From Myxococcaceae bacterium (GTDB lineage Bacteria; Myxococcota; Myxococcia; Myxococcales; Myxococcaceae), in assembly GCA_019694595.1 (NCBI GenBank), contig JAIBBQ010000053.1, positions 1 to 34,610 of the forward strand: DNA of 34,610 bases, in the 5' to 3' direction. A program made the translations under genes and the position numbers. Position 1 is the stretch's first letter, and every line of letters begins with the position of its first letter. This document shows, one piece after another, positions 12,912 to 28,089 of this stretch. The notes under the pieces are model-generated. The model was not told where the DNA came from. It saw nothing but the letters and a program-made list of their open reading frames with translations, and made no database searches.

Positions 12912-13229
12912 CTAGAAGGGCACGTCTTCGTCGTCCCCGGCCGGCGCCGCGGGCTTGCGCCCCCCGGTCGCGGGCTTGGTGGCGGCGGGCGCCGGGGCGT
13001 CCGACACCTCGAGCGGCGCGGCGCGGCCGTCGTCGCTCAGGAGCTGCTCGATCTTCTTCTCGGCCTCGCTGAGCAGCCGCTCGCCCTGCTTCACGAGCTT
13101 CACGCCTTCCGCGAAGCGATCGAGCGAGGCTTCCAGCGAGAGCTCGCCACCCTCGAGCGACTCCACGATGGCCTTGAGGCGGGCCACCACGTCGCCGTAC
13201 TCCTCGCGCTTCTCGCTCTTGCCGGTCAC
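12912..13229 (-). CDS. xseB: Exodeoxyribonuclease VII small subunit
   Basis: A 105-residue protein whose first 75 residues are the XseB helical hairpin: ARLKAIVESLEGGELSLE, ASLDRFAEGVKLVKQGERLL, SEAEKKIEQLL. This is the characteristic LE-x-GELSLEESL pattern that binds the XseA coiled coil. The last ~30 residues are an Ala/Pro-rich tail ending in acidic DDEDVPF. It works with XseA to degrade single-stranded DNA to short oligonucleotides. Start GTG 13229 follows an AAGGCG. The gene is 34 nt after xseA and 44 nt before ispA. Confidence 0.92.
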   Translation of the reverse strand: MTGKSEKREEYGDVVARLKAIVESLEGGELSLEASLDRFAEGVKLVKQGERLLSEAEKKIEQLLSDDGRAAPLEVSDAPAPAATKPATGGRKPAAPAGDDEDVPF

Positions 13230-13263: not shown

Positions 13264-15000
13264 CTACCGCTTCCCCTTCTTCACCGCGGTCACCTTCGCC
13301 TCGAGCTCGTCTTCCCGGGCGAGACGCACCACCACCACCTCGCCCGGCTGCACGTCGTCGGCCGAACGGATGACCGGCCCCTGCGCGCCCTTGCGCGGAA
13401 TCGCATAGCCCCGCCGGAGGATCGCCAGCGGGCTCAGCGCATCGAGCCGCTGCGCCTGGCCGGCCAGGGTGTCCCTGCGGCGGGCGATGGCGCGCGAGGC
13501 AGACGGCCCCAGCCGCTGCTTCCACTGGGCGAGCGCGGCCTTGCCGGCGCGAATGGCCCCCTGGGGCGACTCGTGGCGCAGCCGGGCGGACATCGCGCCC
13601 AGCTCGGCGCGCTCCTCCCGCAGGCGGACCAGCAGCACCCGCTCGAGTCGACGCGACAGCTGCTTGAGCTCGGCCCGCACCGCCTGCACCCGGGCCTGGG
13701 GTCGGGCGAGCTGCAGCCGCTGGGTGAGCACGCGCAGCGAATCCTGGCCATCGCGCAGCTGCCGCCGCAGGGCCGCGGTGCCCGCCTCGGTGAGCTCCGA
13801 CAGCTCGAGCCGGGCCTGCGACAGCTTGCGCCGCGGGTCACCCAGCTCGCCCTTGAAGCCGCGCAGCTCGGCGCGCCGGTCGTTCACCAGTCGCCGGGCC
13901 GACCGCTCGAGCCGCGAGCGCGCCTGGGCGAGCTCGAGCAGGAGGTCGGCGAGCACCGGGGCCACCAGCTCCGCGGCGGCGCTCGGCGTCGGCGCCCGCA
14001 CGTCGGCCACGAAGTCGGCCAGGGTGGTGTCGATCTCGTGCCCGACCGCGCTCACCACCGGCACCGGGCAGTCGAAGATCGCGCGGGCGACCGGCTCCTC
14101 GTTGAAGGACCAGAGATCCTCCACCGAGCCACCGCCGCGCGTCACCACCAGCACGTCGATGCGCTGGCGCCCGAGCCGGTGAATCGCCCGGGCGATCTCC
14201 AGCGCGGCCCCATCTCCCTGCACCCGGGTGTTGGCCACCAGCACCGCCAGCCGCGGGTGCCGCCGGTGCAGGACCTTGAGGAAGTCCTTGAGCGCCGCGC
14301 CGCTGACGCTGGTCACCACCCCGATGCGCCTGGGGAGCCGGGGCAGCGCGCGCTTCGGCCGGATGCGCTGGTCGCCGAACAGCCCTTCCTTGAGCAGCTT
14401 CGCCTTGAGCTGCTCGAAGGCGAGCGCCATCGCCCCCACGCCGCTCGGCTGCAGCGCGTGGGCCACCAGGCTGTAGCGGCCCGCGGGCTCGTAGAGGTCG
14501 ATGCTGCCTTCGGCGACCACCTTGAGCCCGTCGCGCAGCGCGAACTTGAGGCGACGGGTGGTGCTCTCCCAGACCTTCACGTCGATCGAGGCGTCGCCGT
14601 CTTTCAGGGCGAAGTACCAGTGCCCACGGGCGTTGGGGCCGCGGAAGCCCGACACCTCGCCCTGCACCAGCACGCGGGCGAACTTGGGCTCCAGCGTGTC
14701 CTTGAGCGCCCGGGTCAGCTCGCCGACCGAGAGCACCCGCGGCGCCTTGGGCGTCTGCGGCTGCAGCGGCTGCAGGGGCGCGGGTGCGGGCGCGCGCCAG
14801 GCCGGCACGGGGGCCGCGGCCGGAGCCGGCACCTCGGGCGGCGGCGGCCGGGTGAAGACCGGGTGCGCCGCCACGGGCCCCTTCGCGGGAACGGCAGCAG
14901 CGCTGCTGGTGGTGGCGGCGGGAGCCTTGGGCTTCGGCTCCGGCGCCTTCTCGGTGTCCGGCGCCGGCGAAGGCCCGCCGAAGAGATCGGCCTGCTTCAC
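13264..15000 (-). CDS. xseA: Exodeoxyribonuclease VII large subunit, with N-terminal Pro/Ala-rich extension
   Basis: Catalytic subunit of exonuclease VII. From about residue 91 the standard enzyme begins (RVLSVGELTRALKDTLE): an OB-fold (LVQGEVSGFRGPNARGHWYF, ALKDGDASIDVKVW), then the catalytic core with RIGVVTSVSGAALKDF, VVTRGGGSVEDLWSFN and VVSAVGHEIDTTLADFVAD, then a long charged coiled coil (~330-500) and the C-terminal segment LAILRRGYAI. The first ~90 residues are an Ala/Pro/Lys linker of low complexity not found in typical XseA (about 450 residues). GTG 15000 overlaps the stop of the upstream FHA gene by 4 nt. The alternative is that translation starts inside the linker, but no better site is evident. 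Confidence 0.93.
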   Translation of the reverse strand: MKQADLFGGPSPAPDTEKAPEPKPKAPAATTSSAAAVPAKGPVAAHPVFTRPPPPEVPAPAAAPVPAWRAPAPAPLQPLQPQTPKAPRVLSVGELTRALKDTLEPKFARVLVQGEVSGFRGPNARGHWYFALKDGDASIDVKVWESTTRRLKFALRDGLKVVAEGSIDLYEPAGRYSLVAHALQPSGVGAMALAFEQLKAKLLKEGLFGDQRIRPKRALPRLPRRIGVVTSVSGAALKDFLKVLHRRHPRLAVLVANTRVQGDGAALEIARAIHRLGRQRIDVLVVTRGGGSVEDLWSFNEEPVARAIFDCPVPVVSAVGHEIDTTLADFVADVRAPTPSAAAELVAPVLADLLLELAQARSRLERSARRLVNDRRAELRGFKGELGDPRRKLSQARLELSELTEAGTAALRRQLRDGQDSLRVLTQRLQLARPQARVQAVRAELKQLSRRLERVLLVRLREERAELGAMSARLRHESPQGAIRAGKAALAQWKQRLGPSASRAIARRRDTLAGQAQRLDALSPLAILRRGYAIPRKGAQGPVIRSADDVQPGEVVVVRLAREDELEAKVTAVKKGKR

Positions 15001-16694
15001 CGGTTGCCGAGCTTCGCCAGCCAGCGGGCGGCCTTCTCGTGCAGCTCGTCACCGGCCGGCGTCATCTGCACCACCTTCTGCAGCACCGCCGCCGCCTCGT
15101 CGGGGCTCTGGTCCTTCAGCGAGTACCCCTGCTGGTAGAGCTCGGTGGCGGTCTTGCGCGCCTCGGCGACGATCGCCTGGGCGCCGGAGTTCCCCGGGTC
15201 GGCGGCGAGCACCTTGCGCGCGTTCTCGGCGGCGGTCGCCCAGTCCCCGGCGGCCTTCGCTGCCGCGGCCTTCTTGTAATAGGCGCCGGACACCCGCACC
15301 GAGATGTTGTGCGACTGGGGCGTCAGCTCACCGCCGGAGATCTTCTTGTCGAGCTCGAGCAGCGCGAGCAGCTCGTTGGGCGAGAGCGAGTCGGCCTTGC
15401 GCGAGCGCTCGTCGAACTCCTGGATCTGCCGCATCAGCGTCTTGCACTGGGCGCTCTTCGCGGCGCACTCGTTGGCCATGGCGAGCGCACCGGTCTTGTC
15501 GCCGGTGGCGTAGCGGCGCTGCACCTCGACCCAGGGCGTCGGCGCCGGCCCGCTGTTGTCGACCTTCACCGGGTGATCGATGCGGTTGATGGCCGCCTCG
15601 GCCACCTTCTTGAACTCCAGCGCGTCGCGCTGATCGGGAATGGCGCCCAGCACGTCGTTCGCGACGTTGAGCAGCTCGGTCATCTTGGCGCGATCGCCGG
15701 TCGCCGCCAGCAGCGCGCGGGCGGCGTCGAGGTTGCCCTTGAGCTTCACCTCGAGCTTCGCGCGCAGCTCGTCGCGCCGCTCGAACTGCTGGGTGTCCTT
15801 GGTCACCTGGGAGAGCGCCTTGGAGGCCTTGGAGACCTCGTTGGCTTCCAGCGCCGCCGCGCACTCGTCGAGCAGCTGCTGGTTGGGGATCTCCTTGATG
15901 GTGACGTCGAGGTAGCGCTTCACCGCGCCCTGCGCGTAGCCGGGCTCGAGCTCCTCGAGTTCCTCGAACTTGGCCTTGGCCTCGGTCCACTTGCCGTTGC
16001 GCGCGAGGTTCTTGCCTTCCTGGAAGATGGCCTGCCGCTCGGCGAGCGCACGCTGCTTGTCGGCTTCCACCTGCTGCACCTGGGCGGCCTTCTTGTTCTG
16101 GATCACCTTGTAGGTGAACCCACCCGCCATCACGATGCCCACGAGCCCGGCGATGCGAATGAAGCGCTTGCGCTTGGCCTGCGCGAGCTCGGGCCCCTGG
16201 GACAGCGTCCGGCTGCGCGCGAGCGGCCGGCCGCGGGGCATCGACACTTCGCCCATGCTGTTGCGACGCGGCACCGGGCGACGCGCCGGCGCATCTTCGA
16301 CCAGCTGGAGCTCGGAGTCGCCCAGGGTGATCACGTCACCGCTGGACAGCGGCGTCTCTTCCGAGATGGTGACGCCGTTGACCATGGTGCCGTTGCCGCT
16401 GCCCATGTCGCTCGCCGCCCACCCGGCCTCGGTGCGCCGCAGGAGCACGTGCTTGCGCGACACCGAGGTGTCGGCGATCGACACCGCGTTCTCGGCCGCG
16501 CGGCCGATCACCACCTCATCGCCGTCGAGCGGAAACTCCTGCCCCTGCGCCGGCCCCGCGCTGCAGACCAGCTTGGCGCCGCCTCCGATGGCCCGCTGCG
16601 CCCCGGTGGGCCGCCGCGCCCGGACCGGTGCCGACGCCGCGGGCTGCTGCCCCGTGGGTCGACGGCGGGCCGGAGTTCCATTGGGGGGTGCCAT
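14997..16694 (-). CDS. FHA-domain transmembrane protein with periplasmic repeat helices
   Basis: A 565-residue protein. Residues 1-38 are basic and disordered. An FHA phosphothreonine-binding domain covers ~40-130: VVIGRAAENAVSIADTSVSRKHVLL with the key IGR, SRKH and then GSGNGTMVNG. After a linker, one membrane helix (~175-195, IRIAGLVGIVMAGGFTY) puts the remaining ~370 residues outside the cytoplasm. These are charged, TPR-like or coiled-coil helices (KFEELEELEPGYAQGAV, RKVLAADPGNSGAQ). It probably reads Ser/Thr-kinase signals on the inside and contacts envelope proteins outside. Start ATG 16694 has GAGAGAGG upstream. It follows another FHA gene and precedes xseA with overlap, so it ends the Tad-type operon or bridges it to the DNA-repair genes. 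Confidence 0.85.
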   Translation of the reverse strand: MAPPNGTPARRRPTGQQPAASAPVRARRPTGAQRAIGGGAKLVCSAGPAQGQEFPLDGDEVVIGRAAENAVSIADTSVSRKHVLLRRTEAGWAASDMGSGNGTMVNGVTISEETPLSSGDVITLGDSELQLVEDAPARRPVPRRNSMGEVSMPRGRPLARSRTLSQGPELAQAKRKRFIRIAGLVGIVMAGGFTYKVIQNKKAAQVQQVEADKQRALAERQAIFQEGKNLARNGKWTEAKAKFEELEELEPGYAQGAVKRYLDVTIKEIPNQQLLDECAAALEANEVSKASKALSQVTKDTQQFERRDELRAKLEVKLKGNLDAARALLAATGDRAKMTELLNVANDVLGAIPDQRDALEFKKVAEAAINRIDHPVKVDNSGPAPTPWVEVQRRYATGDKTGALAMANECAAKSAQCKTLMRQIQEFDERSRKADSLSPNELLALLELDKKISGGELTPQSHNISVRVSGAYYKKAAAAKAAGDWATAAENARKVLAADPGNSGAQAIVAEARKTATELYQQGYSLKDQSPDEAAAVLQKVVQMTPAGDELHEKAARWLAKLGNR

Positions 16695-16808
16695 CGTCGA
16701 AGGCCTCTCTCATTCCGCGGACTTGCAGCCACCTGGCGTCCGCGTCCAACCGGCGGATTGTGACAAGGAGAGCGCCAGGCGCCAAGGATCAGTTCCAACC
16801 ACATCCTC
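16695..16808. other. 114-nt gap between the two FHA genes
   Basis: The gap holds no ORF. On the minus strand there is a TTGTCA and a TTGGAC hexamer but neither has a convincing -10 at the right distance, and a small GCGCC-T-GGCGC palindrome at 16772-16782. A secondary promoter for the FHA-xseA-xseB-ispA-dxs-tlyA genes could lie here, which would make sense for housekeeping genes behind a Tad operon, but it cannot be identified by eye. Confidence 0.3.
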
Positions 16809-18743
16809 TCACAGCTGGTAGCGCGTGAGCGCCTCGTCGGCGAGGGCCTGGCAGCGGTGATCGCGCCCCGGAAAGGCCAGCGGAACGGCCTCGAGGATCT
16901 CCTTCGCCTTCTCGGGGTTGCGCAGCTCCATCTGCTTCTTGGCCTCGAGCAGCATCGCCCCGCACTCGCGGTCGAGCTGCACGCCGAGCTCGTCGGCCTT
17001 GCGGCGCGCCTGCTCGAAGAGACCACCCCGCTCGCTCTCGGGCACCGACAGCAAGGTCTGCCACGCGTGGCGGTACTCCTTCCAGGCCCGGTACACGTTG
17101 TCGGCGCTCACGTCGCGCTGCCCGTAGAGCAGCGTGGCCTGCTGGAGCTGCTGCTTGGCGGTCCGCAGCGCGGAGGCCTTGTCGATGGCCAGCACCGGCA
17201 AGAGTTCGACCGACAGCTCGCTCACCTGCCAGGTCTCCCGCGCCGGCGGGTTGTGGACCTGATCGAAGACCAGGAGGTTGTCTTCGCCGCGGTGAATCAC
17301 GCCCGGCTGGATCAGCACCTCGTCGAGGCGGTCGGGCACGCCGATGTCCGCGGGGACCGAGCCCACCAGCGTGCCGTTGACGGTGATCGACACCTCGTCA
17401 CGGGAGATGTCGCGCGCGGCGAAGCGGACGATCACCGCAGTGTCGGTGGGCGCATTCACCAGGAAGGTGAACTGCTTCTCGTCGACCGCCAGGTAGTCGA
17501 CCCCGTCCCCCACTCCGAAGCTCGCGTGCACCGGCGACAGGCCCAGCTCGTGGGGCTCGGGCGGCAGCTCCACCGCCGGCGCCGGCCACGCGAGGCGGCC
17601 GATCATCCACCCCACGACCAGCGCGACGACGGTGACCACCCCGGCGACGATCACCCGGCTGCGGGGCTCGAGCTCCTTCCACCAGAGCCCGAGCTGCCCG
17701 GCGAGCGTCTTCTGCGCGCGCCGGCGAATGCGCGCCCGCTCGGAAGCGAGCAGCTGCACCTCGACCTCGGACGTCTGGGGAGGGTTGGTGACCTCGTCGG
17801 AATCGACCAGCGGCGCATCGGCCCGCGTCGCGACGTCTTCCGCCTTCGCCAGGACGCTGGGGACCCGGACCTCGGTCATCTGCTGGGCGACCTCCGACGC
17901 GCGCTTGAGCGCCGACGACGGCACCAGACCGGTCTCCTTGTCTTCGGCTGGCGGCGGAGCGACCTCGGTCTTCTGTTCCTGCAGCGGCTTCGGGAGCCCC
18001 GAGGGGAGCGGGATCAGCGGCGCCACCGCGGAAGGCCGGGGGCCTCCACGGCCCAGCGGCGCCGACCCCTTGGGGTGCGTGGGCTCCTCGGTGGCCCTGG
18101 GCGCGCCCGCGTGGGAACTCTCCGGCGGCCGGGGGGCCGACACGCGGGGCCGGGTCGGCCCTTCGAGGTCGGGGCCGGTCCGCTCCGCGCTCACCTCCAG
18201 CGCCTGGCCGCGGGGGGCGGTGGGGTCTTCCGACATCGCCGCCCTGCGCCGGGGGTCGATCGCCTCGCCCGACGCGGTGATGATCTCCTCGTCGTCGACG
18301 GCGTGCGGCTCGGCCACCAGCGGCGCGAACGGCCCCGCAGCCTCGTCACCGGTGGCCGCCGCGGACCCTGCGGCGGGGAACTCACCCGTCCGGCGGCGCT
18401 GCTCGACCTGCAGGCCCACCGGGCGCAGCTTCTTGCCGTCGTCGTCCGGCCCCAGATCGATGAAGGACACCAGCGCCGCGCCGATGCCCAGGGCGTCTCC
18501 GGTGGCCAGCGGCCTCGGAGCGCGCACCGCCTCGCCGTTGAGCAAGGTGCCGTTCGAGCTCGCGAGGTCCTCGACGAGGTAGCGGCCGCCCGCCTGGAAG
18601 ATGCGGGTGTGGACCTTGGAGACCCCGGCGTCGGGCAGCACCAGATCGTTCTCGTCGGCGCGGCCGATCTTCACCTCCGACCGGGTGACGACCAGCTGGG
18701 TTCCCTCGCGAGCGCCCCGGGTGATGAGGAGCTGGAACGACAG
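16809..18743 (-). CDS. FHA-domain transmembrane protein of the Tad-like operon (probable CTG start)
   Basis: The FHA domain reads FQLLITRGAREGTQL, VVTRSEVKIGRADENDLVL, VSKVHTRIF, LVEDLASSNGTLLNGEAV, with all phosphothreonine-binding landmarks (IGR, S-x-x-H-like, SSNGT). The first strand lies upstream of the first conventional start (GTG 18674), and the frame is closed by the tadC stop at 18747, so a CTG at 18743 giving 644 residues is the likely start. A long Pro/Glu/Ala-rich linker (~120-320) leads to one membrane helix (~365-388, VIVAGVVTVVALVVGW). A beta-rich outer domain follows (VSITVNGTLVGSVPADIG, VFDQVHNPP), then helices. It starts 3 nt after the tadC stop, so it is probably part of the apparatus or its regulation. 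Confidence 0.8.
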   Translation of the reverse strand: MSFQLLITRGAREGTQLVVTRSEVKIGRADENDLVLPDAGVSKVHTRIFQAGGRYLVEDLASSNGTLLNGEAVRAPRPLATGDALGIGAALVSFIDLGPDDDGKKLRPVGLQVEQRRRTGEFPAAGSAAATGDEAAGPFAPLVAEPHAVDDEEIITASGEAIDPRRRAAMSEDPTAPRGQALEVSAERTGPDLEGPTRPRVSAPRPPESSHAGAPRATEEPTHPKGSAPLGRGGPRPSAVAPLIPLPSGLPKPLQEQKTEVAPPPAEDKETGLVPSSALKRASEVAQQMTEVRVPSVLAKAEDVATRADAPLVDSDEVTNPPQTSEVEVQLLASERARIRRRAQKTLAGQLGLWWKELEPRSRVIVAGVVTVVALVVGWMIGRLAWPAPAVELPPEPHELGLSPVHASFGVGDGVDYLAVDEKQFTFLVNAPTDTAVIVRFAARDISRDEVSITVNGTLVGSVPADIGVPDRLDEVLIQPGVIHRGEDNLLVFDQVHNPPARETWQVSELSVELLPVLAIDKASALRTAKQQLQQATLLYGQRDVSADNVYRAWKEYRHAWQTLLSVPESERGGLFEQARRKADELGVQLDRECGAMLLEAKKQMELRNPEKAKEILEAVPLAFPGRDHRCQALADEALTRYQL

Positions 18744-18746
18744 GGC

Positions 18747-19658
18747 TCAGCCCCCGACGTTGCCGAACATGAACTGGAAGACGATGGGCCCGAAGAGCAC
18801 CATGAACACCGTCGGAAAGATGCAGGCGATCAGCGGGAACAGCATCTTCACCGGCGCTTCGTTGGCGAGCTTCTCGGCCCGCTGGGTGCGATCGATGCGC
18901 AGCTGGGTCGACTGGATGCGCAGCACCTTGCCGAGCGAGGTGCCCATCTTGTCGGCCTGCACCAGGGCGGTGACGAACTGGGTCAGCGGCGCCAGGTCGA
19001 CCCGGGCGATCATCGCCTTGAGCGCTTCCTCGCGGGTCTTGCCCATCTTGAGCTGCTTGAGCACCACCTGCAGCTCGTCGCGCAGCGGGCCCGGCTTGCC
19101 CTTCTCGACCACCTTCTGCAGCCCGGCGGTGAAGTCGAGGCCCGCTTCCACCGAGAGCGTCAGCAGGTCGAGGTTGAACGGGAGCGCACGGCTGATCTGC
19201 AGGTGGCGCTTCTTGACCTGATCGTTGACCCAGATGAGCGGGTAGAAGAGCCCGAGCAGCGCGCCGAAGAAGGCCATGGGCAGCGGCCAGCCGATGCCGT
19301 TGACCAGGAAGAGCGAGACCGCGAGGCCGATCACGAAGCCGACTTCCTGCATGGCCATGATCTCTTCCGGCCGGTACCCGCTCAGCTCCTGCAGCCCGCT
19401 CTTCACCAGGTTGCGGGCCATGCGCGACTCGTAGCCCGGCCACATGAACGAGCGGTTCACCGCGCCGAGCTGGCGCAGCACCACGTTGCGCACGCCGCTG
19501 ACGCCGGCCGACTCTTCGCGCACCTCGTTGATGAACTTCTCGAACAGGTTGGTCCACAGCCCGTAGAGCAGGAAGCTCACCGAGCCCGCGGCGAGCAGCG
19601 ACGCGCCGATGACCAGGGCGGTGGTGATGGCGTTCTGCAGGGCGCTGGGTTCGTTCAT
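18747..19658 (-). CDS. tadC: TadC-like inner-membrane platform protein (T2SS F domain)
   Basis: A 303-residue polytopic protein. Membrane helices appear at about 13-32 (TALVIGASLLAAGSVSFLLYG), 107-140 (FVIGLAVSLFLVNGIGWPLPMAFFGALLG) and at the C-terminus (LFPLIACIFPTVFMVLFGPIVFQFMFG). Between them is the cytoplasmic T2SSF domain (SRALPFNLDLLTLSVEAGLDFTAGL, ELQVVLKQLKMGKTREEALKAM, VQADKMGTSLGKVLRIQS). TadB and TadC together form the platform through which the ATPase drives pilin assembly. It starts at ATG 19658, 12 nt after tadB, and is followed after 3 nt by the FHA gene. The usual order cpaB-...-tadB-tadC supports the name. Confidence 0.9.
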   Translation of the reverse strand: MNEPSALQNAITTALVIGASLLAAGSVSFLLYGLWTNLFEKFINEVREESAGVSGVRNVVLRQLGAVNRSFMWPGYESRMARNLVKSGLQELSGYRPEEIMAMQEVGFVIGLAVSLFLVNGIGWPLPMAFFGALLGLFYPLIWVNDQVKKRHLQISRALPFNLDLLTLSVEAGLDFTAGLQKVVEKGKPGPLRDELQVVLKQLKMGKTREEALKAMIARVDLAPLTQFVTALVQADKMGTSLGKVLRIQSTQLRIDRTQRAEKLANEAPVKMLFPLIACIFPTVFMVLFGPIVFQFMFGNVGG

Positions 19659-19670
19659 GGCAGGCCCCGG

Positions 19671-20516
19671 TCAGATGTCGATGTTGACGATGCGCCGGAT
19701 GATGAGCATCCCCAGGATCTCCATCACGCAGATCGCGGAGACGAGCACGTAGCCGAACCAGTGATCGAGCATCGGCTGCATGAGGTCGGGCCGCATGTAG
19801 TTGAGCACCATGCCGAGGATCAGCGGCATCGCCCCCACCACCCAGCCCTGCAGCTTGCCCTGCGACGTCAGCGCGTCGATCTTCCCTTCGAGCCGGAAGC
19901 GCTCGCGGATGGTGACCGAGAGCGTCTCGAACATCTCGGCCATGTTGCCGCCGAGCTGCCGGGAGATGTTGGTGGCGGTCACCACCAGCTCGAGGTCGTC
20001 GCTGCCCACCCGGCGCGCCATGTTCACCAGCGCCTCTTCCATGGGCACGCCGAGCTTGGCTTCCTTCACGAAGAGCCCGAACTCCTGGGTGAGCGGCGGC
20101 TGCGCCTCGCGCGCCACGTGCTCGATCGACTGCTGGAAGGTGAGGCCCGCCTTGAAGGCGTTGGCCATGGCCTGCAGCGCGTCGACCAGCTGGGTGTTGA
20201 ACTTCTTGATGCGCGCGTTGCGGTAGTAGCGGACCAGCAGCATCGGCAGGAAGAAGCCGAAGATGAGCCCGCCGATCGCCACCAGCGGGTTGATGAGCAG
20301 GTAGCTCATCATGCCGATGAGGAACATCGACGCGAAGTTGAGGATCAACATCTGCCGCGGGTCGATGAACAGGAACATGTCGCTCAAGTCGTTCATCGAC
20401 TTGACGATGTAGCGCTCCTGGTACTGCTCGTACGCTTTCGACAGCACGCCGAAGATCGCCAGGCTCAGGAAGAACACCGAGCCGGTGACCAGCAGGAGGA
20501 CGATGGTGCCGAGCAT
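19671..20516 (-). CDS. tadB: TadB-like inner-membrane platform protein (T2SS F domain)
   Basis: A 281-residue polytopic protein with an N-terminal helix (4-25), a helix pair (~56-96, LILNFASMFLIGMMSYLLI / PLVAIGGLIFGFFLPMLLV), a cytoplasmic T2SSF domain (~100-225: LVDALQAMANAFKAGLTFQQSIEHV, GVPMEEALVNMARRV, QLGGNMAEMFETLS, EGKIDALTSQGKLQGWV) and C-terminal helices. QLVDAL-x-x-MANAFKAGLT is the typical TadB signature. It would bind the assembly ATPase, which is not encoded in the window. It lies between cpaB (27 nt) and tadC (12 nt). Confidence 0.9.
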   Translation of the reverse strand: MLGTIVLLLVTGSVFFLSLAIFGVLSKAYEQYQERYIVKSMNDLSDMFLFIDPRQMLILNFASMFLIGMMSYLLINPLVAIGGLIFGFFLPMLLVRYYRNARIKKFNTQLVDALQAMANAFKAGLTFQQSIEHVAREAQPPLTQEFGLFVKEAKLGVPMEEALVNMARRVGSDDLELVVTATNISRQLGGNMAEMFETLSVTIRERFRLEGKIDALTSQGKLQGWVVGAMPLILGMVLNYMRPDLMQPMLDHWFGYVLVSAICVMEILGMLIIRRIVNIDI

Positions 20517-20543
20517 GGCGGGCGGGTCTCCTCGCGCTGACCG

Positions 20544-21362
20544 TTACTGCCCGCCCGGCGTCGGCTTGCTCTCGCTGGCGGTCCCGCGGATGACCTGGAT
20601 GGTGTTGAACCGCTTCGCCTGGAGCACGCGGGTGCGCTCACCCGACAGCAGGGTGTTGATGGTCGCGCGGCCGCGCTCTTCCAGCGTGTCCACGTCGTCC
20701 TCGTTGCGCAGGCTCATGGTGAGCGAGCCGAGCTCCTGGGCGAGCACGAGGATCTCGGCTTCTTCGGGGATCACCAGGAGGCTGACGTTGTTGTAGTCGC
20801 GCTGGCTCTCGGGAATCAGGTTCACGTTGGTGGTGCCGGTGATCTTCCCGGTCGCGAGCACGATCACGTTCTGCAGCAGCGTCACCGCCACGTTCTCGTT
20901 GGTCTGCGGGTCCTTGAAGGTGCCGATGAGGTCGACGTGATCGTTCGGGCGCACCCAGCCGCCGACCGAGGTCGACTTGCCGGCGTCGATGGTGATGGCG
21001 CGCGCCTTCTTCTGCACCTTGGTCGACAGGCGCTCGGCGGCCTTGGTGGTCTCGAACTGGCTCCACAGGAGCGGGTCGCCCGCCTGCACCGGCACCAGCA
21101 CCTTCTGGTTCACCACGTAGTTCGCGGAGTCGGGCTTCACCACCGACGAGGTGACGAACTGCTCGGGCACCGAGCGCTGGGACACCATGTCGAAGGTCAC
21201 CACCTGGCCTTCGGCGATGTCGACCGCGGCGACCACCACGGGGATGAGGTTCCACCCCTTGCGAACGTCGTTCTCCTTCTTCCGGATGGCGTTCCACGCG
21301 ACGAAGCCGGCCACGATGCCGAGCACGATCGCGACGATGAGCGGGGTCTTCCCCTTGAGCAT
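20544..21362 (-). CDS. cpaB: Flp pilus assembly protein CpaB/RcpC
   Basis: A 272-residue protein with a single N-terminal membrane helix (TPLIVAIVLGIVAGFVAWNAI, about 5-25). A periplasmic SAF-like domain follows (VVVAAVDIAEGQVVTFDMVSQRSVPE, about 46-70), then VLVPVQAGDPLLWSQF and the CpaB C-terminal region (KARAITIDAGKSTSVGGWVRPNDHVDLIGTF, VTLLQNVIVLATG, VSLLVIPEEAEILVLAQE). CpaB proteins work in the periplasm with the Tad secretin, possibly binding peptidoglycan. Start ATG 21362. A good promoter-like sequence lies 60-90 nt upstream, so this gene likely opens a transcription unit running through tadB, tadC and the FHA genes. Confidence 0.92.
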   Translation of the reverse strand: MLKGKTPLIVAIVLGIVAGFVAWNAIRKKENDVRKGWNLIPVVVAAVDIAEGQVVTFDMVSQRSVPEQFVTSSVVKPDSANYVVNQKVLVPVQAGDPLLWSQFETTKAAERLSTKVQKKARAITIDAGKSTSVGGWVRPNDHVDLIGTFKDPQTNENVAVTLLQNVIVLATGKITGTTNVNLIPESQRDYNNVSLLVIPEEAEILVLAQELGSLTMSLRNEDDVDTLEERGRATINTLLSGERTRVLQAKRFNTIQVIRGTASESKPTPGGQ

Positions 21363-21421
21363 GGGCAGTGGCTCCGGACGGCGGTTCGAACTGTCAGGGA
21401 TTGTCGGTGGAAGCGGGTGAA

Positions 21422-21450
21422 ATGGTACCGGCCGCCGATCTGCCCGTCAA
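21422..21450 (-). promoter_or_regulatory. Sigma-70-type promoter candidate for cpaB
   Basis: On the minus strand TTGACG (21450-21445) and TACCAT (21427-21422) are separated by exactly 17 nt. The -35 matches the consensus at five of six positions and the -10 at four of six. Transcription would start near 21415, giving a leader of about 50 nt before cpaB. It sits in the only sizeable gap inside the Tad region. Found by eye only. Confidence 0.45.
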
Positions 21451-21459
21451 AAGGGACTT

Positions 21460-22137
21460 TCAGTCACCTGACTGTGGTGGCGTGTCGGGGTTGAACACAC
21501 CCCGCAGCTCGACCGCGGCGCCGCGCTCGTCCGACAGCAGCGCCGGGCGGCCGTCGCCGTCGATTCCCACGAAGCGCAGGCTGAAGCTGACGGCGTCGGG
21601 CCCGACCGCCACCAGCACCGTGCCGGGCGGTCGATCGCCCTGCTCTTCCCCCGAGGCGACCGAGGGCTCGACGCGGGCGAAGAGGCGGCCCCGGTACGCG
21701 AGCGGCACCGTCTCGGCGGCCTTCGCGAGCGCCTGGGACCAGGCGGCCAGGTCCCTCGGCACCTCGCCGTGCTGCTGGAGCGTGCCGTTCATGGGAAGGA
21801 ACAGCTCGCGGCCGGTGGCGAGGAACAGCGCGTTGGCCCCGGCGGCCGAGCGTCGGGACACGTCGTGCCCCTGGGCTGCCAGGCTCGAGGCGAGCGCCAC
21901 CAGGATGCCGCCGCTCGCCCACAGCGGGGCCGACCGCCGACGCACGAGCGAGGCGAGCAGCACCACGGCGCCGACCAGCGCCAGCAGCGCGGCGGCGAGG
22001 CCCAGGGGCGAAGGCGCGGTGCCGCAGTGGTAGGGCTGCGCGAGCGCGCGCCAGAGCTGCTCGACTTCGGGGTGGATGCCGGCGACCGCCGCGGCCGCGA
22101 GCCCGAGGAAGGAGACCGCGTGCACGGCGCGCAGCAC
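21460..22137 (-). CDS. Membrane protein of unknown function in the Tad-like locus
   Basis: A 225-residue protein with about three N-terminal hydrophobic helices (~4-21 AVHAVSFLGLAAAAVAG; ~44-66 LGLAAALLALVGAVVLLASLV; ~72-88 ASGGILVALASSLAAQ). A soluble domain of about 130 residues follows (ALFLATGRELFLPMNGTL, VPLAYRGRLFARVEPSVASGEEQ, VLVAVGPDAVSFSLRFVGIDGDGRPALL). The soluble part looks like a small beta domain, similar in layout to pilus accessory or ExbD-like proteins, but I recognise no family. Start GTG 22137, 18 nt after the small prepilin gene. Position between prepilin and cpaB suggests an apparatus-specific role. Confidence 0.65.
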   Translation of the reverse strand: MLRAVHAVSFLGLAAAAVAGIHPEVEQLWRALAQPYHCGTAPSPLGLAAALLALVGAVVLLASLVRRRSAPLWASGGILVALASSLAAQGHDVSRRSAAGANALFLATGRELFLPMNGTLQQHGEVPRDLAAWSQALAKAAETVPLAYRGRLFARVEPSVASGEEQGDRPPGTVLVAVGPDAVSFSLRFVGIDGDGRPALLSDERGAAVELRGVFNPDTPPQSGD

Positions 22138-22155
22138 GAGGGCGCCGACGCTCGC

Positions 22156-22383
22156 TCAGGGGAACGGCAGGTTCAGCACGAAGTAAAACGAGTCGTAGTA
22201 GGTCTGGTACGCGTCGAGGAACAGCTCGATGAGGTTCTTCGGGTTCCCGCCCGGCCCGGGAATCATCTTCACGCTGCCGATGGCCAGCAGGCCGACGATC
22301 AGCAGCCAGTTGATCATCGAGTACTCGACCATCGCCTGCCCTCTCGGGTGGCGGCGCTCACGGGCTGGGCGTTGGTTCCGCAT
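22156..22383 (-). CDS. Small Flp-like prepilin
   Basis: A 75-residue protein with a basic leader ending in Gly15, followed by QAMVEYSMINWLLIVGLL. This is the type IVb/Flp prepilin pattern: Gly at -1, Glu at +5, Tyr at +6 and a hydrophobic stalk. Cleavage would leave a 60-residue pilin, typical of Flp subunits. The C-terminal part is Pro/Gly then aromatic-rich (YQTYYDSFYFVLNLPFP), which may mediate subunit packing. It is the best candidate for the major pilin. ATG 22383 lies inside the 3' end of the preceding gene (26-nt overlap), so translation is probably coupled. The prepilin peptidase is not in the window. Confidence 0.75.
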   Translation of the reverse strand: MRNQRPARERRHPRGQAMVEYSMINWLLIVGLLAIGSVKMIPGPGGNPKNLIELFLDAYQTYYDSFYFVLNLPFP

Positions 22384-23098
22384 GCTCGACCCCCAGTGTA
22401 GGCGTTCCAGGCGGCGGCAGCACCATCCGCCCTTTGGCCCCGGTCCCGAAATCGCGGACTTCCATCGAATGGCCGATGGCGGGGATCTCGATCTTGGCCA
22501 GGTGCAGCACGGGCACCGAGCGAGAGACCCAGAACCGCTTGAGCACGGTGCTCTTGATGCGTACCTCGACCGGCACCGCCGAAACCGTGCCGGCGAGGGT
22601 GAGCAGCCGGGTCTCCGCCCCCTTCACCGTGCGCACGCCCATGTCCCTGGCTGCCGCCTCGGGGTTGGCCGGGGGCGGAGCGCTCGGCGGCGCGGTGAAG
22701 AGGCCTTCGATGGCCCGGGCGTCGAGCTCGCGGACCGGGTCGAGGCCCACCGCCGCGTACGCCCGGGTGACGTTGGCCGCGGTGAGCGGCTGCCCCTTCA
22801 CGCTCAGCACGCGGACCTGCGCGAGCGGCGCCTTGAACTCGTGGTGCTGGCCGAACTCGATCTCCATCCACCACGCGTCGCGGCCCTTGGCGTCGGTCTC
22901 TTCCCCCACCACGGCCATGCGCCAGTACGCCTCGCGCTCGCCGCCCGAGCTCAGCTTGAAGGTGACCCAATCGCCGACCTTGGTGTCACCGGTGCCTTCG
23001 AAGTGGGACCCGAGCGCCTGCCCCAGCGGGCTGGTGAACGGCGCCGGCGGCCCGGCGACCGACATCGGCGCGGCGGCGAGGAGGAGCGCGAGGATCAC
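22358..23098 (-). CDS. Exported protein of unknown function in the Tad-like locus
   Basis: A 246-residue protein starting at GTG 23098, overlapping the upstream stop by 4 nt. A signal peptide is visible (MILALLLAAAPMSVAG, cleavage before or near PPAP). The mature protein is beta-rich with repeated short charged strands (VGDWVTFKLSSGGEREAYWRM, DAWWMEIEFGQHHEFKAPL, VRVLSVKGQPLT). A Pro/Ala linker near residue 150 precedes a second region (TLAGTVSAVPVEVRIKST, VPVLHLAKIEIPAIGHS). No family recognised. A periplasmic assembly factor or outer-surface component is an inference from position only. Confidence 0.7.
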   Translation of the reverse strand: MILALLLAAAPMSVAGPPAPFTSPLGQALGSHFEGTGDTKVGDWVTFKLSSGGEREAYWRMAVVGEETDAKGRDAWWMEIEFGQHHEFKAPLAQVRVLSVKGQPLTAANVTRAYAAVGLDPVRELDARAIEGLFTAPPSAPPPANPEAAARDMGVRTVKGAETRLLTLAGTVSAVPVEVRIKSTVLKRFWVSRSVPVLHLAKIEIPAIGHSMEVRDFGTGAKGRMVLPPPGTPTLGVEHAEPTPSP

Positions 23099-23832
23099 TT
23101 CTTCTTCACCTTCTGCGCCTTGCGCACGTCCTGGATCTCCGCGTTGGGCACCGCGTCCGGCCGATCGCTGCGGGTCCAGCTCTCCTGCAGGGCGGTGAGC
23201 TGCGGCTCGACCGCGAGGAAGGTGAGCACCACCTGCTCGCCGTCTTTCCCCAGCTCGAGCACCCGCTGCACCTGGCCGTTCAAGGTGACCTTCTCGTCGT
23301 GCGCGAGCTGGAACCCGCTCGCGGTGAGCGGCGCCACCACCTGGTCGACCGCCGCGTTGATCGGCTTCTCGACCAGCGCGGTGCGGCTGAAGGTCGCGCC
23401 GCCGTCGTCGCGCGCGTGCGTCTCGTGAGCGAAGAGCGCGCCTTCGAGGCCAGGCACCGGAGGGGCGGGCACCTTCTCGGGGCGAACCCACAGGTCCTTG
23501 AGCACGGTGAAGGCGAGCGTCTTCTCCTCGTAGCGGCGGACCACCACCGACCGCACCAGCCCTTCGCGCGTGTAGAACGCGGAGACGACCCCCTCGTCGC
23601 GGAAGTCTCCGTCCTGGGTGACGGGGTAGCCTTCCTGCTTCCACTGCTTGGCGAAGAAGGCGGCGACCTTGGCCGGCGGGTCGGCGGTCACGAAGTACGC
23701 CACCCGGTAGTACTCGCCGCCGATCACCAGATCGTTGCCGATGCGGGTGTGCACGGTGCCCGGGTACACCGCGAGCGGCTGCTCGGCCGAGGCGAGACCA
23801 GCGACGAGCAGCGCCGCGACCGCCCACCTCAT
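23095..23832 (-). CDS. Exported protein of unknown function in the Tad-like locus
   Basis: A 245-residue protein with signal peptide MRWAVAALLVAGLASA cut before EQPL. ATG 23832 overlaps the stop of the TadE-like gene by 4 nt (ATGA). The mature part has mixed alpha/beta character: GGEYYRVAYFVTADPPAKVAAFFAKQW, VVSAFYTREGLVRSVVV, TLAFTVLKDLWVRPEKVP, VAPLTASGFQLAHDEKVTLNG. The C-terminus is very basic (KAQKVKKK). The fold is not recognised. It is translationally coupled to the next exported protein, so the two may act as a pair in equal amounts. Confidence 0.7.
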   Translation of the reverse strand: MRWAVAALLVAGLASAEQPLAVYPGTVHTRIGNDLVIGGEYYRVAYFVTADPPAKVAAFFAKQWKQEGYPVTQDGDFRDEGVVSAFYTREGLVRSVVVRRYEEKTLAFTVLKDLWVRPEKVPAPPVPGLEGALFAHETHARDDGGATFSRTALVEKPINAAVDQVVAPLTASGFQLAHDEKVTLNGQVQRVLELGKDGEQVVLTFLAVEPQLTALQESWTRSDRPDAVPNAEIQDVRKAQKVKKK

Positions 23833-25013
23833 GGCCTGGGGCTCTCGCAGTCCATCTTCTTGTTGTTGCTCTCCTTGTCGGAGTTGGGCGGGGGCCCGGG
23901 CACCGTGGGGTCGTCGGCCATGGGGTTCATGCAGCCCATGAAGTACTCGCCGCGCGCCCGGAACATCTGCCGGTAGAGCGAATCTCCGAGCACCACCGTG
24001 TCCCGGAACGGGGAGGTGTCGAAGCAGGCGCGCTGGTTGGCGTCGAGCTTGCTCGCCCCCTTGACGTTGTTCATGCCAGCCCAGCCTTCGGCGCCGGTGT
24101 TGAAGTCGCGGCAGCCGTGATCGTCGCCGCCGTGCTCGTAGCGGTTGGAGACGACGTAGGCGGACTGCAGCGGCATCGGGATCACGTTGGCGATGAAGCT
24201 CGCGACGTTGCCCACCGGGCCGAAGTCGGCGAGGTCCGCGGTGAGCCCCAGGTGCATCATGCGCCGGACCTGCGAGTAGAGCCCGGTGGGAGAGCCGAGG
24301 AAGTTGAGGCCGGCGCGCGGGGCGCCGAGCCCGAAGGCGCGGGCCCGGGAGTTGGTGCCGTCGGTGAGGTCCCACCCGCTCGCCACCAGCGTGTACCGGT
24401 TGTTCACCGGGCGGTTGTTGAGGCTGCGCCCGCCGTAGACGTCGGAGCCGAAGAAGCCGGTGCCGCCTTCGTCGAGGAAGTGCTGGGGCAAGATGCGGTT
24501 GTCGGTGCGCAGCGTGGTGCTGACCGTGACCTGCCCCTTGGTGTTGAAGCCGAAGCGTTTGTAGAAGAACCGCGAGCTGTCGTTGAGCGCCGACAGCGCC
24601 TTCTGGAACGGCCCGGGGAGGCTCGCCGAACCGAGGCCGGGGATTCCGGTCTCGAACGCGGGAATGTCCTCGTTCACCACCTCGGTGGTGAAGCCGCCCC
24701 ACCCCATGAACATGTTGCCGGTGGTGGTGTCCTCGATGGAGTCGAGGTCCTTGTACCGATCGGTCGCTTCCTGCACCGCCTGGTCGTGCGCGAGCTGGAA
24801 GGCGTGGTCGTGGTTCGCCTGTCCGTAGTCGTCGAGCGTGTACGCGGTCATCTCCCACGCCATGTACCGGGTGGCTTCCTGCACCTTGAGCTGCACCCGG
24901 GCGAGCTCGGCGAGGTACATGCTCCAGAGGAGGATCACGACCAGCACCGGCGCCAGGAGCGCCAGCTCGGTGATCGCCGCGCCGCGAGGCGCTCTGGGGG
25001 CCGGGCGCCGCAT
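23829..25013 (-). CDS. Large TadE-like pseudopilin
   Basis: A 394-residue protein. The N-terminus MRRPAPRAPRG followed by AAITELALLAPVLVVILLW has the prepilin signature (Gly11 at -1, Glu16 at +5) and one membrane segment (~17-37). The next helix, LARVQLKVQEATRYMAWE, is typical of TadE. The rest, about 340 residues, is a large extracytoplasmic domain rich in Asn/Gly/Phe (FFYKRFGFNTKGQVTVSTTL, GSDVYGGRSLNNRPVNNRYTL) with four or so Cys and a Pro-rich, Lys/Asn-rich end. Normal TadE proteins are under 200 residues, so this is a minor pilin fused to an unknown domain, perhaps at the tip. Starts 2 nt after the upstream stop. Confidence 0.8.
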   Translation of the reverse strand: MRRPAPRAPRGAAITELALLAPVLVVILLWSMYLAELARVQLKVQEATRYMAWEMTAYTLDDYGQANHDHAFQLAHDQAVQEATDRYKDLDSIEDTTTGNMFMGWGGFTTEVVNEDIPAFETGIPGLGSASLPGPFQKALSALNDSSRFFYKRFGFNTKGQVTVSTTLRTDNRILPQHFLDEGGTGFFGSDVYGGRSLNNRPVNNRYTLVASGWDLTDGTNSRARAFGLGAPRAGLNFLGSPTGLYSQVRRMMHLGLTADLADFGPVGNVASFIANVIPMPLQSAYVVSNRYEHGGDDHGCRDFNTGAEGWAGMNNVKGASKLDANQRACFDTSPFRDTVVLGDSLYRQMFRARGEYFMGCMNPMADDPTVPGPPPNSDKESNNKKMDCESPRP

Positions 25014-25015
25014 GG

Positions 25016-27088
25016 TTAGTGGGTGATGATCTTCTGGGGAATGCTCTTGAGGAGCCCCGGCAGCGCATTCGACACCTCGTTCACCACCGGCAGCGAGTAG
25101 CGGCCTTGCCAGACGGAAGCGAGGCGCGGCTTCCAGTAGGGGTTGAAGAAGTTGGGCTGCTCCGTCCAGCTCCCGGGGCGGTGGTAGTACGTCTGCCCGC
25201 GCGAGATGACGTTGAGCCCCGAGGAGAAGGCGAGGAACTTCTTCCGGGTGTTGTCGAGCTCGAGCTTGGTCGGCCGCACGAAGTCGATCTTCAGCGTGCC
25301 GTCGGGGTTGAGCAGCGCCGGCGCGTTGCGGGTGGCGCCGGAAGGGTCGGCCTTGGGGTTCTGCAATTCCTCGGGCGACTTGTGGAACACCGCCCAGGTC
25401 GACGGCTGGTTGAACTCCGTCGCGCGCGAGGCCGCGGTGTTGAGGCTCGGACCGCCGCCGCTGCCGAAGCGCGGCTCGAGGCAAGGGCCGGCGAACTCTC
25501 CGGGCTCGAAGTGCGGGAACGGAGCCAGCCCCTTCCAGGGGTGGTTGCCGTCGTACACCGGCCGCACGTTCGCCACGTAGATGTCCTGCGAGGGGATGCC
25601 GAAGGCGATGCTCTTGCTCACCTTGGACAGGCCGATGTCGGCTTGGTTGTTGCCCAGGCCCCCCTGGGGCCGGTCGAACGCCAGGCGCGCAGCCCGAGGC
25701 AGCAGTCGGCCGGGCGAGGGCTCTCGAACGAGGCGGAAGTGAACGCCCCCCGACGGGTGGCCCGGGTTCTCGGAGTCGTTCATCGCCCAGATGCTGGGCT
25801 TCACAGCGTTGTGGAAGCTGCCGGTGTCGACCTGGTCGAACTCGCCGTAGTTGGGGTCGCCCCAGCACCTGTTGGGGTTGTCGCCCGGGGCGCACGCGAA
25901 GGGGTTGTTGAAGATGCCGATCTTCCTCGGGCCGAAGGAGATCTTGTAGATGTCGTCGGAGCCAAGGTTGTCGCCCTGCGCGAGCAGCGACATCGGCTCG
26001 TTGGGCAGGTCGCGAGCGTCGCGCATGTAGTTGCGCCACCGATCACGCCCCTGATCCATCACCGCGAACCTGGTGCTCAGCATGCGCGTCTGTCCGCGCT
26101 TGAAGTCGGGGATCAGGTTGGCGATCACGCCACGCAGCGGGTCGAGCCACGAGAAGAGCGGGAACATCTGCGCCGGCTCGCGATCGGTGACCCACGCCGG
26201 CAAGCCGTAGTTGGGCCCTGCGGGAACGTTGTCCGCGCCGAAGCGGGTGGCGTTGGTGACGTTGCCCATCGATCGCTTGGCGCGCGCCACCTTGTCGTTC
26301 TCGTTCACCGCGTCGACGTCGAGTGGCCGGGTGAAGCCCAGGGGGCGCCAGAAGCTCACCCCGGCTTCGCTGTAGTGGGCGCGCTCGAAGATGCAGCTGG
26401 AGATGAGCCCCAGCCCGGTGCGGGCGAAGTCGTTCGACAGGTTGGGGTCGTTCATCGCCACCACGTCCTGCGACGTGCTCTGGACGTGCGTCATCGCCGA
26501 GTAGAGCGTCGCCTGCGCCAGCCCGGTGAGGACCTGGTTGAGCACCCGGTAGCTGGGGATCACCAGCCTCCCGAGGAACTCGTCGAGCTTCGAGCCTTCG
26601 AGCACGTCCTGGTAACCGGCCACGAACTTGCGCAGCAGCTGGCCGATGGAGTTGATCAACTTGAGGATCGCGCCCACGTACGGAATGGCTTCCAGCACCG
26701 GGCAGATCGCGGTCCACGGGATGCTGAGCCCCTTGCCCGGGGCGCACTTGTCGATGGAACTGAAGAGCCCGTAGATGTCGGTGAGGAACGCTTCCAGCGC
26801 GTATGCGGCGGACAGCGTCGACTGCCACACCATCGCCGCCACGTAGTGCGAGACGTGGGTGCGGTTGACGAAGGCGTAGAGGTTGAAGGCGCGCGATTCC
26901 ATCGCCGCCATCGAGTACGCGGCGGAGTCGGCGGTGTTCTGCAGCTTCACCCGCTCGTGAATCGTGTGACCCAGGTTCACCGTGGTGAGCACGGCGATCG
27001 CCAGGATCAGCATGAACAGGCAGCCGAGCACCATCGCCTGCCCTTCGCGGCGCTTCATTCCCTGACGCAAGGAGCGGGTCCACAGCAT
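25016..27088 (-). CDS. Large TadG-like protein with Tad domain
   Basis: A 690-residue protein. After a basic N-terminus (REGQAMV) comes one membrane helix (~19-40, VLGCLFMLILAIAVLTTVNLG) and the Tad-type motif VKLQNTADSAAYSMAAM, which marks TadG/TadE-like proteins (pfam 'Flp pilus-assembly TadE/G-like'). The +5 position after Gly is Leu, not Glu, so it is probably an anchored rather than a processed subunit. The ~640-residue outer part contains aromatic and Asn-rich stretches with scattered Cys (DKCAPGKG, AICPVLEAIP, SSCIFERAHYS, FACAPGDNPNRCWG) and no domain I recognise, such as a von Willebrand A MIDAS. ATG 27088 follows GAGGACGCC at good spacing. Gaps to neighbours are 8 and 2 nt. Confidence 0.8.
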   Translation of the reverse strand: MLWTRSLRQGMKRREGQAMVLGCLFMLILAIAVLTTVNLGHTIHERVKLQNTADSAAYSMAAMESRAFNLYAFVNRTHVSHYVAAMVWQSTLSAAYALEAFLTDIYGLFSSIDKCAPGKGLSIPWTAICPVLEAIPYVGAILKLINSIGQLLRKFVAGYQDVLEGSKLDEFLGRLVIPSYRVLNQVLTGLAQATLYSAMTHVQSTSQDVVAMNDPNLSNDFARTGLGLISSCIFERAHYSEAGVSFWRPLGFTRPLDVDAVNENDKVARAKRSMGNVTNATRFGADNVPAGPNYGLPAWVTDREPAQMFPLFSWLDPLRGVIANLIPDFKRGQTRMLSTRFAVMDQGRDRWRNYMRDARDLPNEPMSLLAQGDNLGSDDIYKISFGPRKIGIFNNPFACAPGDNPNRCWGDPNYGEFDQVDTGSFHNAVKPSIWAMNDSENPGHPSGGVHFRLVREPSPGRLLPRAARLAFDRPQGGLGNNQADIGLSKVSKSIAFGIPSQDIYVANVRPVYDGNHPWKGLAPFPHFEPGEFAGPCLEPRFGSGGGPSLNTAASRATEFNQPSTWAVFHKSPEELQNPKADPSGATRNAPALLNPDGTLKIDFVRPTKLELDNTRKKFLAFSSGLNVISRGQTYYHRPGSWTEQPNFFNPYWKPRLASVWQGRYSLPVVNEVSNALPGLLKSIPQKIITH

Positions 27089-27096
27089 GGCGTCCT

Positions 27097-28089
27097 CTAC
27101 AGGCCCCACGACGGGTTCAGGTGCATGATCCACTTGCGGTGGAAGTTCGACTGCATGCGCATCGAGTGGGTCGCGGTGAGCGGCAGGAAGTACCGCCGGC
27201 CGATGAGCTTGCTGAGGATGGGGATGTCGCCGCTCGCCAGGCCCCAGAGCACGCGCATCTCGGGCTGGTAGAGCGAGTCGAAGCCCTTCTGGTGGCGGAT
27301 GCCCCGCCCGCCGCCCTGCAGCGAGCTGGCGTCGCCGCTCTTGCCCAGCATGTTCTCCTTGGTGGTGCTCGAGCGCTCGATGCCGCCGTAGAGCGCCACG
27401 TCGGCGTTGGCCGCGAACCACGACAGGAAGATGACCTGGTTCGCGAACGGCACCTTCATCTCGTACCAGTAGCGCAGCCGGATCGAGAGCACCGTGCTCT
27501 TGCGGTAGATCTCCTGGTCCTTCGTGCGCACGTCGAGGTTGAAGAACTCGGCGAACTTGGTGAAGGGCGTCTCCGGGAAGGCGTCGGGCCCGTCGAAGTC
27601 GAGCTCCTTCCAGTTCACGCCGTCGGGCAGCCGCCACAACGTCTCGATGGGCGTGAAGTACGCCGGGTTGACGGTGTCGACGCGCACCAGCCCGAGCAGG
27701 TTGGCGCCGTTGAAGCTCGCCGGCACCACGCCGTTGTTCCACTGCAGCTTGCCGAGCGCGTCGTCGTAGAGCGAAGCCAGGGCCCACGTCTTGCCGAGCT
27801 GGAGGATGTCGTCGGTGCGGCCCATGGTCGGCAGCAACGCGACGATCGCCGCGTCGTGCATGCGCTCGTTGTTGCCGTTCCACACCACGCCTGCGCGCAC
27901 CGCCTGGTACGCGGCGTACTCGGTCATCAGCCGCGCCTGCTGCACCAGCGTCAGCTGCACGATGCCCAGGCAGAAGAAGACCATCAGCGGCATCACCAGC
28001 GCCGCCTCGATGGCCGCCTGTCCTCTCCTGGCTGTGGCGCGCAGCTGCCTCACGGTTTGATTATCCGGGCGAGCGTCGAAGGCCTGCAT
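27097..28089 (-). CDS. TadE-like pseudopilin
   Basis: A 330-residue protein opening the Tad-type gene chain. The leader ends in RRG with Gly23, then QAAIEAALVMPLMVFFCLGIV: Gly at -1, Glu28 at +5 and one membrane segment (~29-48). The helix QQARLMTEYAAYQAVRAG matches the TadE family continuation (usually ...A-x-x-AAR-G). About 260 extracytoplasmic residues follow (VDTVNPAYFTPIETLWRLPDG, KSTVLSIRLRYWYEMKVPFANQ, RRYFLPLTATHSMRMQSNF). It is larger than ordinary TadE. Start ATG 28089; the preceding 139-nt gap contains inverted repeats and probably the promoter. Confidence 0.82.
   Translation of the reverse strand: MQAFDARPDNQTVRQLRATARRGQAAIEAALVMPLMVFFCLGIVQLTLVQQARLMTEYAAYQAVRAGVVWNGNNERMHDAAIVALLPTMGRTDDILQLGKTWALASLYDDALGKLQWNNGVVPASFNGANLLGLVRVDTVNPAYFTPIETLWRLPDGVNWKELDFDGPDAFPETPFTKFAEFFNLDVRTKDQEIYRKSTVLSIRLRYWYEMKVPFANQVIFLSWFAANADVALYGGIERSSTTKENMLGKSGDASSLQGGGRGIRHQKGFDSLYQPEMRVLWGLASGDIPILSKLIGRRYFLPLTATHSMRMQSNFHRKWIMHLNPSWGL

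Follow-up and report, generated by a model that had tools for sequence, protein, structure and literature searches.

A contig that carries CpaB, TadB and TadC together with pilins of a Tad-like apparatus, and no ATPase, secretin or peptidase beside them, raises the question of whether the apparatus is incomplete or has its remaining parts elsewhere. The stretch of DNA analyzed here, referred to as the window, is such a contig in its entirety (C130, 34,610 bp), and it comes from a 7.28-Mb draft genome of 394 contigs that is 99% complete and 0.3% contaminated. The first-pass annotation had taken it for a Tad-like apparatus, possibly related to the Kil system of Myxococcus xanthus, a pilus with which this soil myxobacterium kills prey bacteria upon contact (PMC8460266, PMC12075869). 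We analyzed the identity of the cluster, the whereabouts of the seemingly missing parts, and a set of uncharacterized genes that accompany its tip pilins.

Gene content of the window and orthology with M. xanthus

The CpaB, TadB and TadC proteins, the Flp-like prepilin and the three TadE/TadG-type proteins initially assigned to 18747–28089 on the minus strand were all confirmed, and Pfam and NCBIfam profiles supported the core calls (Table 1). The interval itself was drawn too narrowly: the cluster is larger, and the two FHA genes at 14997–18746 belong to it as well. On the minus strand the order is KilM4, KilN4, KilL4, X4, the 4656 type, KilK, the 4654 type, KilB, KilG, KilH and the two FHA genes; downstream follow xseA, xseB, ispA, dxs and tlyA, with bacN, bacO and bacP at a greater distance. 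The frame of KilK at 22156–22332 was lengthened to 22383 by an upstream start. KilK, KilL4 and KilM4 each contain a prepilin cleavage site of the form G|xxxxE. Pfam Bactofilin matched the frames at 2–499 and 503–835. The MXAN numbers of KilK, KilL4, KilN4 and KilM4 follow PMC12075869, and 4654, 4656 and 4657 were assigned by gene order.

Table 1. Annotated features of contig C130, with percent identity to M. xanthus
Feature	Position	Strand	Evidence
bacP, bactofilin (cut by contig end)	2–499	(-)	78%; same order as M. xanthus
bacO, bactofilin	503–826	(-)	93%; same order as M. xanthus
bacN, bactofilin	869–1210	(-)	81%; same order as M. xanthus
tlyA	9516–10253	(-)	Reciprocal best hit (47–78% across tlyA to xseA); same order
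dxs	10250–11971	(-)	As for tlyA
ispA	11968–12867	(-)	As for tlyA
xseB	12912–13229	(-)	As for tlyA
xseA	13264–15000	(-)	As for tlyA
FHA + TPR protein (start codon uncertain)	14997–16694	(-)	Pfam FHA 1.1e-16 and TPR; reciprocal best hit L089:12487-14148, 39–40%
Second FHA protein (frame open to 18746, start uncertain)	16809–18674	(-)	Pfam FHA 3.4e-17; reciprocal best hit L089:10918-12372, 45% over FHA domain, 35% over C-terminus
KilH, TadC/CpaH-type inner-membrane platform	18747–19658	(-)	T2SSF 1.5e-18; reciprocal best hit, 71%
KilG, TadB/CpaG-type inner-membrane platform	19671–20516	(-)	T2SSF 1.1e-15; reciprocal best hit, 79%
KilB, CpaB/RcpC	20544–21362	(-)	RcpC/CpaB 2.7e-22 and SAF; TIGR03177 pilus_cpaB 2.3e-53; reciprocal best hit, 79%
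Uncharacterized 225-aa protein, MXAN_4654 type by order	21460–22137	(-)	Reciprocal best hit, 45%
KilK, Flp-type adapter prepilin (MXAN_4655)	22156–22383	(-)	Reciprocal best hit, 57%; cleavage site G|QAMVE
Secreted 246-aa protein, MXAN_4656 type	22358–23098	(-)	Reciprocal best hit, 44–46%; model resembles RseB/LolA fold
X4, secreted 245-aa protein, MXAN_4657 type	23095–23832	(-)	Reciprocal best hit, 53%
KilL4 minor pilin (MXAN_4658)	23829–25013	(-)	Reciprocal best hit, 37%; G|AAITE; TadE 0.005, below cut-off
KilN4 large tip pilin (MXAN_4659)	25016–27058	(-)	Pfam Tad (TadE/G-like N-terminus) 7e-8; full-length reciprocal best hit, 46%
KilM4 minor pilin (MXAN_4660)	27097–28089	(-)	TadE 8.5e-11; reciprocal best hit, 62%; G|QAAIE

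When GTDB species genomes were scanned with a KilG profile, 58 named loci emerged, including that of M. xanthus AM003 (L089). All 12 cluster II genes of the contig, from KilM4 through the two FHA genes, are collinear reciprocal best hits of genes at the M. xanthus locus in the same orientation. These results bear out the suspected Kil-like identity. That this is kil gene cluster II, in a myxobacterium belonging to the M. xanthus family, has in our estimate a probability of roughly 0.92. Kil is already a known system; the organism is new to it. The predatory function of the locus is inferred from orthology. Since identity to the M. xanthus counterparts is only 35–46% for KilL4, KilN4 and the FHA proteins, the prey range may differ.

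The comparison extends to the whole of the M. xanthus system (MXAN_3102-3108 and MXAN_4648-4661), with which this genome shares gene content, order, orientation and flanks at both loci, as well as an FHA-fused ATPase, a separate KilP, LMN tip modules and the placement of Tip4 inside cluster II. The two organisms differ in that M. xanthus has one KilP and four tips, whereas this genome has two KilP-like pilins in tandem and five tip modules. In addition, M. xanthus has a predicted frame of 204 aa between 4654 and KilB for which no counterpart was seen on the contig.

Location of the ATPase, secretin and peptidase

As the first-pass annotation had observed, the window contains no ATPase, secretin or A24 peptidase. 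Profile searches of the genome returned 14 T2SSE, six secretin and three A24 matches, every one of them off contig C130. The further claim that the apparatus lacks these parts was not borne out, as a dedicated set of all three was found on contig C292 of the same genome. This contig encodes two lipoprotein-like proteins, an FHA protein, KilA (the peptidase), KilC (the secretin), KilF (an ATPase fused to an N-terminal FHA domain), KilD and the product of a polA-like gene. The order FHA-KilA-KilC-KilF-KilD is that of M. xanthus cluster I, and the arrangement fits MXAN_3102-3108 as set out in PMC8460266 and PMC12075869. Identity to M. xanthus was highest for KilC (84%) and KilF (79%), followed by the FHA protein (56%), KilA (49%), KilD (39%) and the lipoprotein-like proteins (30–36%). 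Given that cluster I is present in the M. xanthus order on another contig, the apparatus is not incomplete but distributed over two loci, and parts seem to be missing from the window because it is one whole contig of such a split system. The arrangement of Kil in M. xanthus over two loci, one of them near bacNOP, agrees with cluster I on C292 and with bactofilin genes 78–93% identical to those of M. xanthus on C130.

The genome also contains a canonical Tad set, with the peptidase, Flp, TadE, CpaB and CpaC on C97 (L029) and CpaE, CpaF, TadB and TadC on C219 (L014); these genes probably form one operon split at the contig ends. Its existence would allow the contig to encode an ordinary adhesive Tad pilus, not involved in predation, whose ATPase and secretin are supplied by this second system. 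However, the second set comes with a CpaB, TadB and TadC of its own, and identity to KilG is only 25% for its TadB, compared with 79% for M. xanthus KilG. Moreover, the genome has a dedicated cluster I arranged as in M. xanthus, and synteny at both loci identifies the system as Kil. Borrowed machinery was rejected on synteny and identity as highly improbable. Even less probable, and rejected on the same grounds, is a decayed or partial Tad system truly devoid of the three parts that the window does not contain, given that the window is one complete contig and that all three are intact frames on C292, 49–84% identical to M. xanthus KilA, KilC and KilF.

The canonical Tad/Flp pilus, represented by Caulobacter cpa and by the genes on C97 and C219, shares with Kil the CpaB protein, the TadB/TadC platform, Flp and the TadE/G pilins. 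In Kil, by contrast, the core genes are split over two loci, FHA proteins have been added, and tip pilins are exchanged as cassettes. CpaE was not recognized at either Kil locus. The contig does not fit a canonical contiguous Tad locus, in which the ATPase, secretin and CpaE lie beside TadB/TadC. Two tandem genes for KilP-like (Flp-like) pilins were found on C180 (L156:998-1723). Their products are ~56–59% identical to each other and ~59% identical to an M. xanthus candidate that was picked by Flp profile and is not tied to MXAN_5121 by locus tag. Separately, both genomes encode an orphan CpaF-like ATPase without an FHA domain and ~46% identical to KilF (C72, L015, in this genome; C13, L147, in M. 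xanthus), which in the stretch read stands away from other Tad genes.

The Tip4 cassette and a fourth tip gene

Across the 58 loci, KilB-G-H is essentially constant, and the Tip4 pilins and the 4654, 4656 and 4657 types are gained and lost together. All of the latter occur in loci of Myxococcus, Pyxidicoccus, Citreicoccus, Hyalangium and Archangium, whereas Corallococcus loci have kept KilK and carry neither the Tip4 pilins nor the three accessory types. The 4654 type accompanies Tip4 genes or KilK-4656-4657 fragments and is absent from Tip4-less loci. In two Archangium genomes the Tip4 block, including KilK, is inverted relative to KilB. The Tip4 cassette is inherited as a unit with its three accessory genes.

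X4 belongs to a recurrent class of genes. In each tip module examined (four in M. xanthus, five in this genome), a gene that we call X is located next to kilL or separates it from kilM; X mostly follows kilL, and in the C277 module it sits between kilL and kilM. Its product is 200–290 aa long and usually has an apparent signal peptide. The five complete kilM-N-L-X modules of this genome are Tip4 and those on C31 (L148), C149 (L149, where KilM was located with a KilM profile), C240 (L150) and C277 (L151). X1/2-type proteins constitute one family, with 24–39% identity and E values down to 1e-34, and in the 30 X1/2-type loci (one per genome) a KilL-like frame was always present within 1.5 kb. X4 and X3 are weakly similar (E 0.002), and BLASTP of X4 against X1/2 gave no significant match. 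A weak profile match between X1/2 and X3/4 (hhalign probability 29%) suggests that all may belong to a single X superfamily.

The association of X4 with its tip pilin holds across the order. A strong X4 match was obtained in 53 of 145 genomes, exactly the 53 that have a full-length KilN4, although the Fisher p-value of this co-occurrence overstates independence because the genomes are related. More informative than the counts is that X4 is missing throughout some genera, Corallococcus among them, in which the remainder of cluster II is retained. In 51 of the 53 genomes, the KilN4 start lies ~3.3 kb upstream of X4 on the same strand. Another 30 matches to the X4 profile were weak, and 25 of these lie 2.8–3.8 kb downstream of another KilN-type start.

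The main text of PMC12075869 never names 4654, 4656 or 4657. The 22 profiles used there correspond, by our own count, to ten kil genes together with 12 L/M/N genes, so that X seems to have been left out. We consider the chances about even that every Kil tip is a four-gene module, composed of KilL-M-N and its own secreted X, to which Tip4 adds the 4654 and 4656 types, and that these partners either load or protect the pilins or form part of the delivered weapon. If true, a four-gene tip module would explain how different tips assemble on one shared pilus. As a separate observation, M. xanthus has a lone KilN4 paralogue of 692 aa on C362 (L143:2959-5037), which shares 70% identity with the KilN4 of that species and has no adjoining kilL or kilM, and second full-length KilN4 matches occur in four other genomes.

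Predicted structures and possible roles of X4 and the 4656 type

Neither X4 nor the 4656 type matched a Pfam domain, X4 gave no match to the DUF1795/Eag family up to E 5, and Pfam matches to the 4654 type were all sub-threshold. The structure model of X4 is of low confidence (pLDDT 72, pTM 0.54) and consists of two beta-beta-alpha-beta4 halves, which suggests two helix-grip domains. Its C-terminal half aligned over ~95 residues with SciW (Z 10.0), DcrB (9.5) and EagT6 (9.1), and its N-terminal half resembles BamC (Z 7.0). Profile comparison of the two halves with each other gave no match (probability 1.7%). Thioesterase II and similar proteins, the top Foldseek matches of X4, were discarded because their TM scores were below 0.2. 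The model of the 4656 type (pLDDT 82, pTM 0.77) matched RseB/MucB with a Foldseek E of 2e-5, TM scores of 0.37–0.40 and VIA-align Z scores of up to 9.8 over 155 residues; LolA was less close. The similarity of the 4656 type to RseB/MucB and LolA/LolB is a tentative one of predicted fold, at 8–14% identity, and this protein differs from them in being linked to Tip4 and in having no known lipoprotein-sorting role.

The clients of Eag chaperones are T6SS effectors, and their site of action is the cytoplasm. X4 shares with the Eag/DUF1795 chaperones and DcrB the predicted fold of its C-terminal half only; unlike Eag proteins, it looks secreted, has two domains and displays no detectable sequence similarity to them. 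According to PMC12881460 and PMC7773334, Eag chaperones stabilize the transmembrane segments of these effectors, and by analogy X could shield the hydrophobic helices of tip pilins in the periplasm. We tentatively propose the 4656 type and X4 as dedicated periplasmic chaperones of tip pilins. For X4 and its counterparts at other tips, the suggestion that they hold cognate tip pilins before assembly is tentative and somewhat less than an even chance, as it leans on a model with a pTM of 0.54 and on a common fold; the weak profile match as the sole link between X1/2 and X3/4 also weighs against it.

In Vibrio cholerae, TcpB docks TcpF. X proteins might similarly be a non-pilin fourth component of the tip or a secreted effector docked to it, in keeping with their apparent signal peptide, their tight linkage to each tip and their divergence between tips. 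In that case X4 or the 4656 type could itself be what lets Tip4 kill independently of T3SS*, an activity for which no toxin has been identified (PMC12075869); the 4654/4656/4657 trio does go with Tip4. On the other hand, X4 and the 4656 type have no Pfam toxin or enzyme domain, their models resemble cavity-bearing chaperones and carriers, and X also accompanies Tips 1–3, which do not kill without T3SS* (PMC12075869). We regard a role as tip component or effector as somewhat less likely than one as chaperone.

The analysis shows which genes are present and in what order, their orthology, the prepilin sites and the co-inheritance; a probable mechanism can be drawn from M. xanthus experiments and Tad biology. 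Published work on M. xanthus describes a KilP pilus that is polymerized by KilF, tips that are coupled by KilK/KilO, and killing of the prey. By extension, clusters I and II and KilP would together produce a Tad-type pilus where the cell touches its prey. KilF would drive KilG/KilH, and KilP would be polymerized through KilB and KilC. X4 and the other X proteins may hold their own tip pilins in the periplasm before assembly, with KilK coupling the KilL4-M4-N4 tip to the pilus. The tip would then recognize and kill prey, and a T3SS-like apparatus would complete lysis. The X genes offer a lead on two questions left open in PMC12075869: how tips are selected by one pilus, and what the source of T3SS*-independent killing by Tip4 is.

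For the needleless T3SS*, the analysis covered the export gates, and each of the two T3SS-type gates of M. xanthus has an orthologue in this genome (82% and 62% identity). A third, flagellar-type export gate lies beside FlhB-/FlhF-like genes on C112 (L159), and flagellin-, FliD- and FliS-like genes are found at C85:1-8471 (L012). In this genus of the Myxococcus family, a two-locus Kil apparatus is intact alongside flagellar genes and a second Tad system. Judging from these sequences, a relative of Myxococcus that carries Kil appears to be flagellated.
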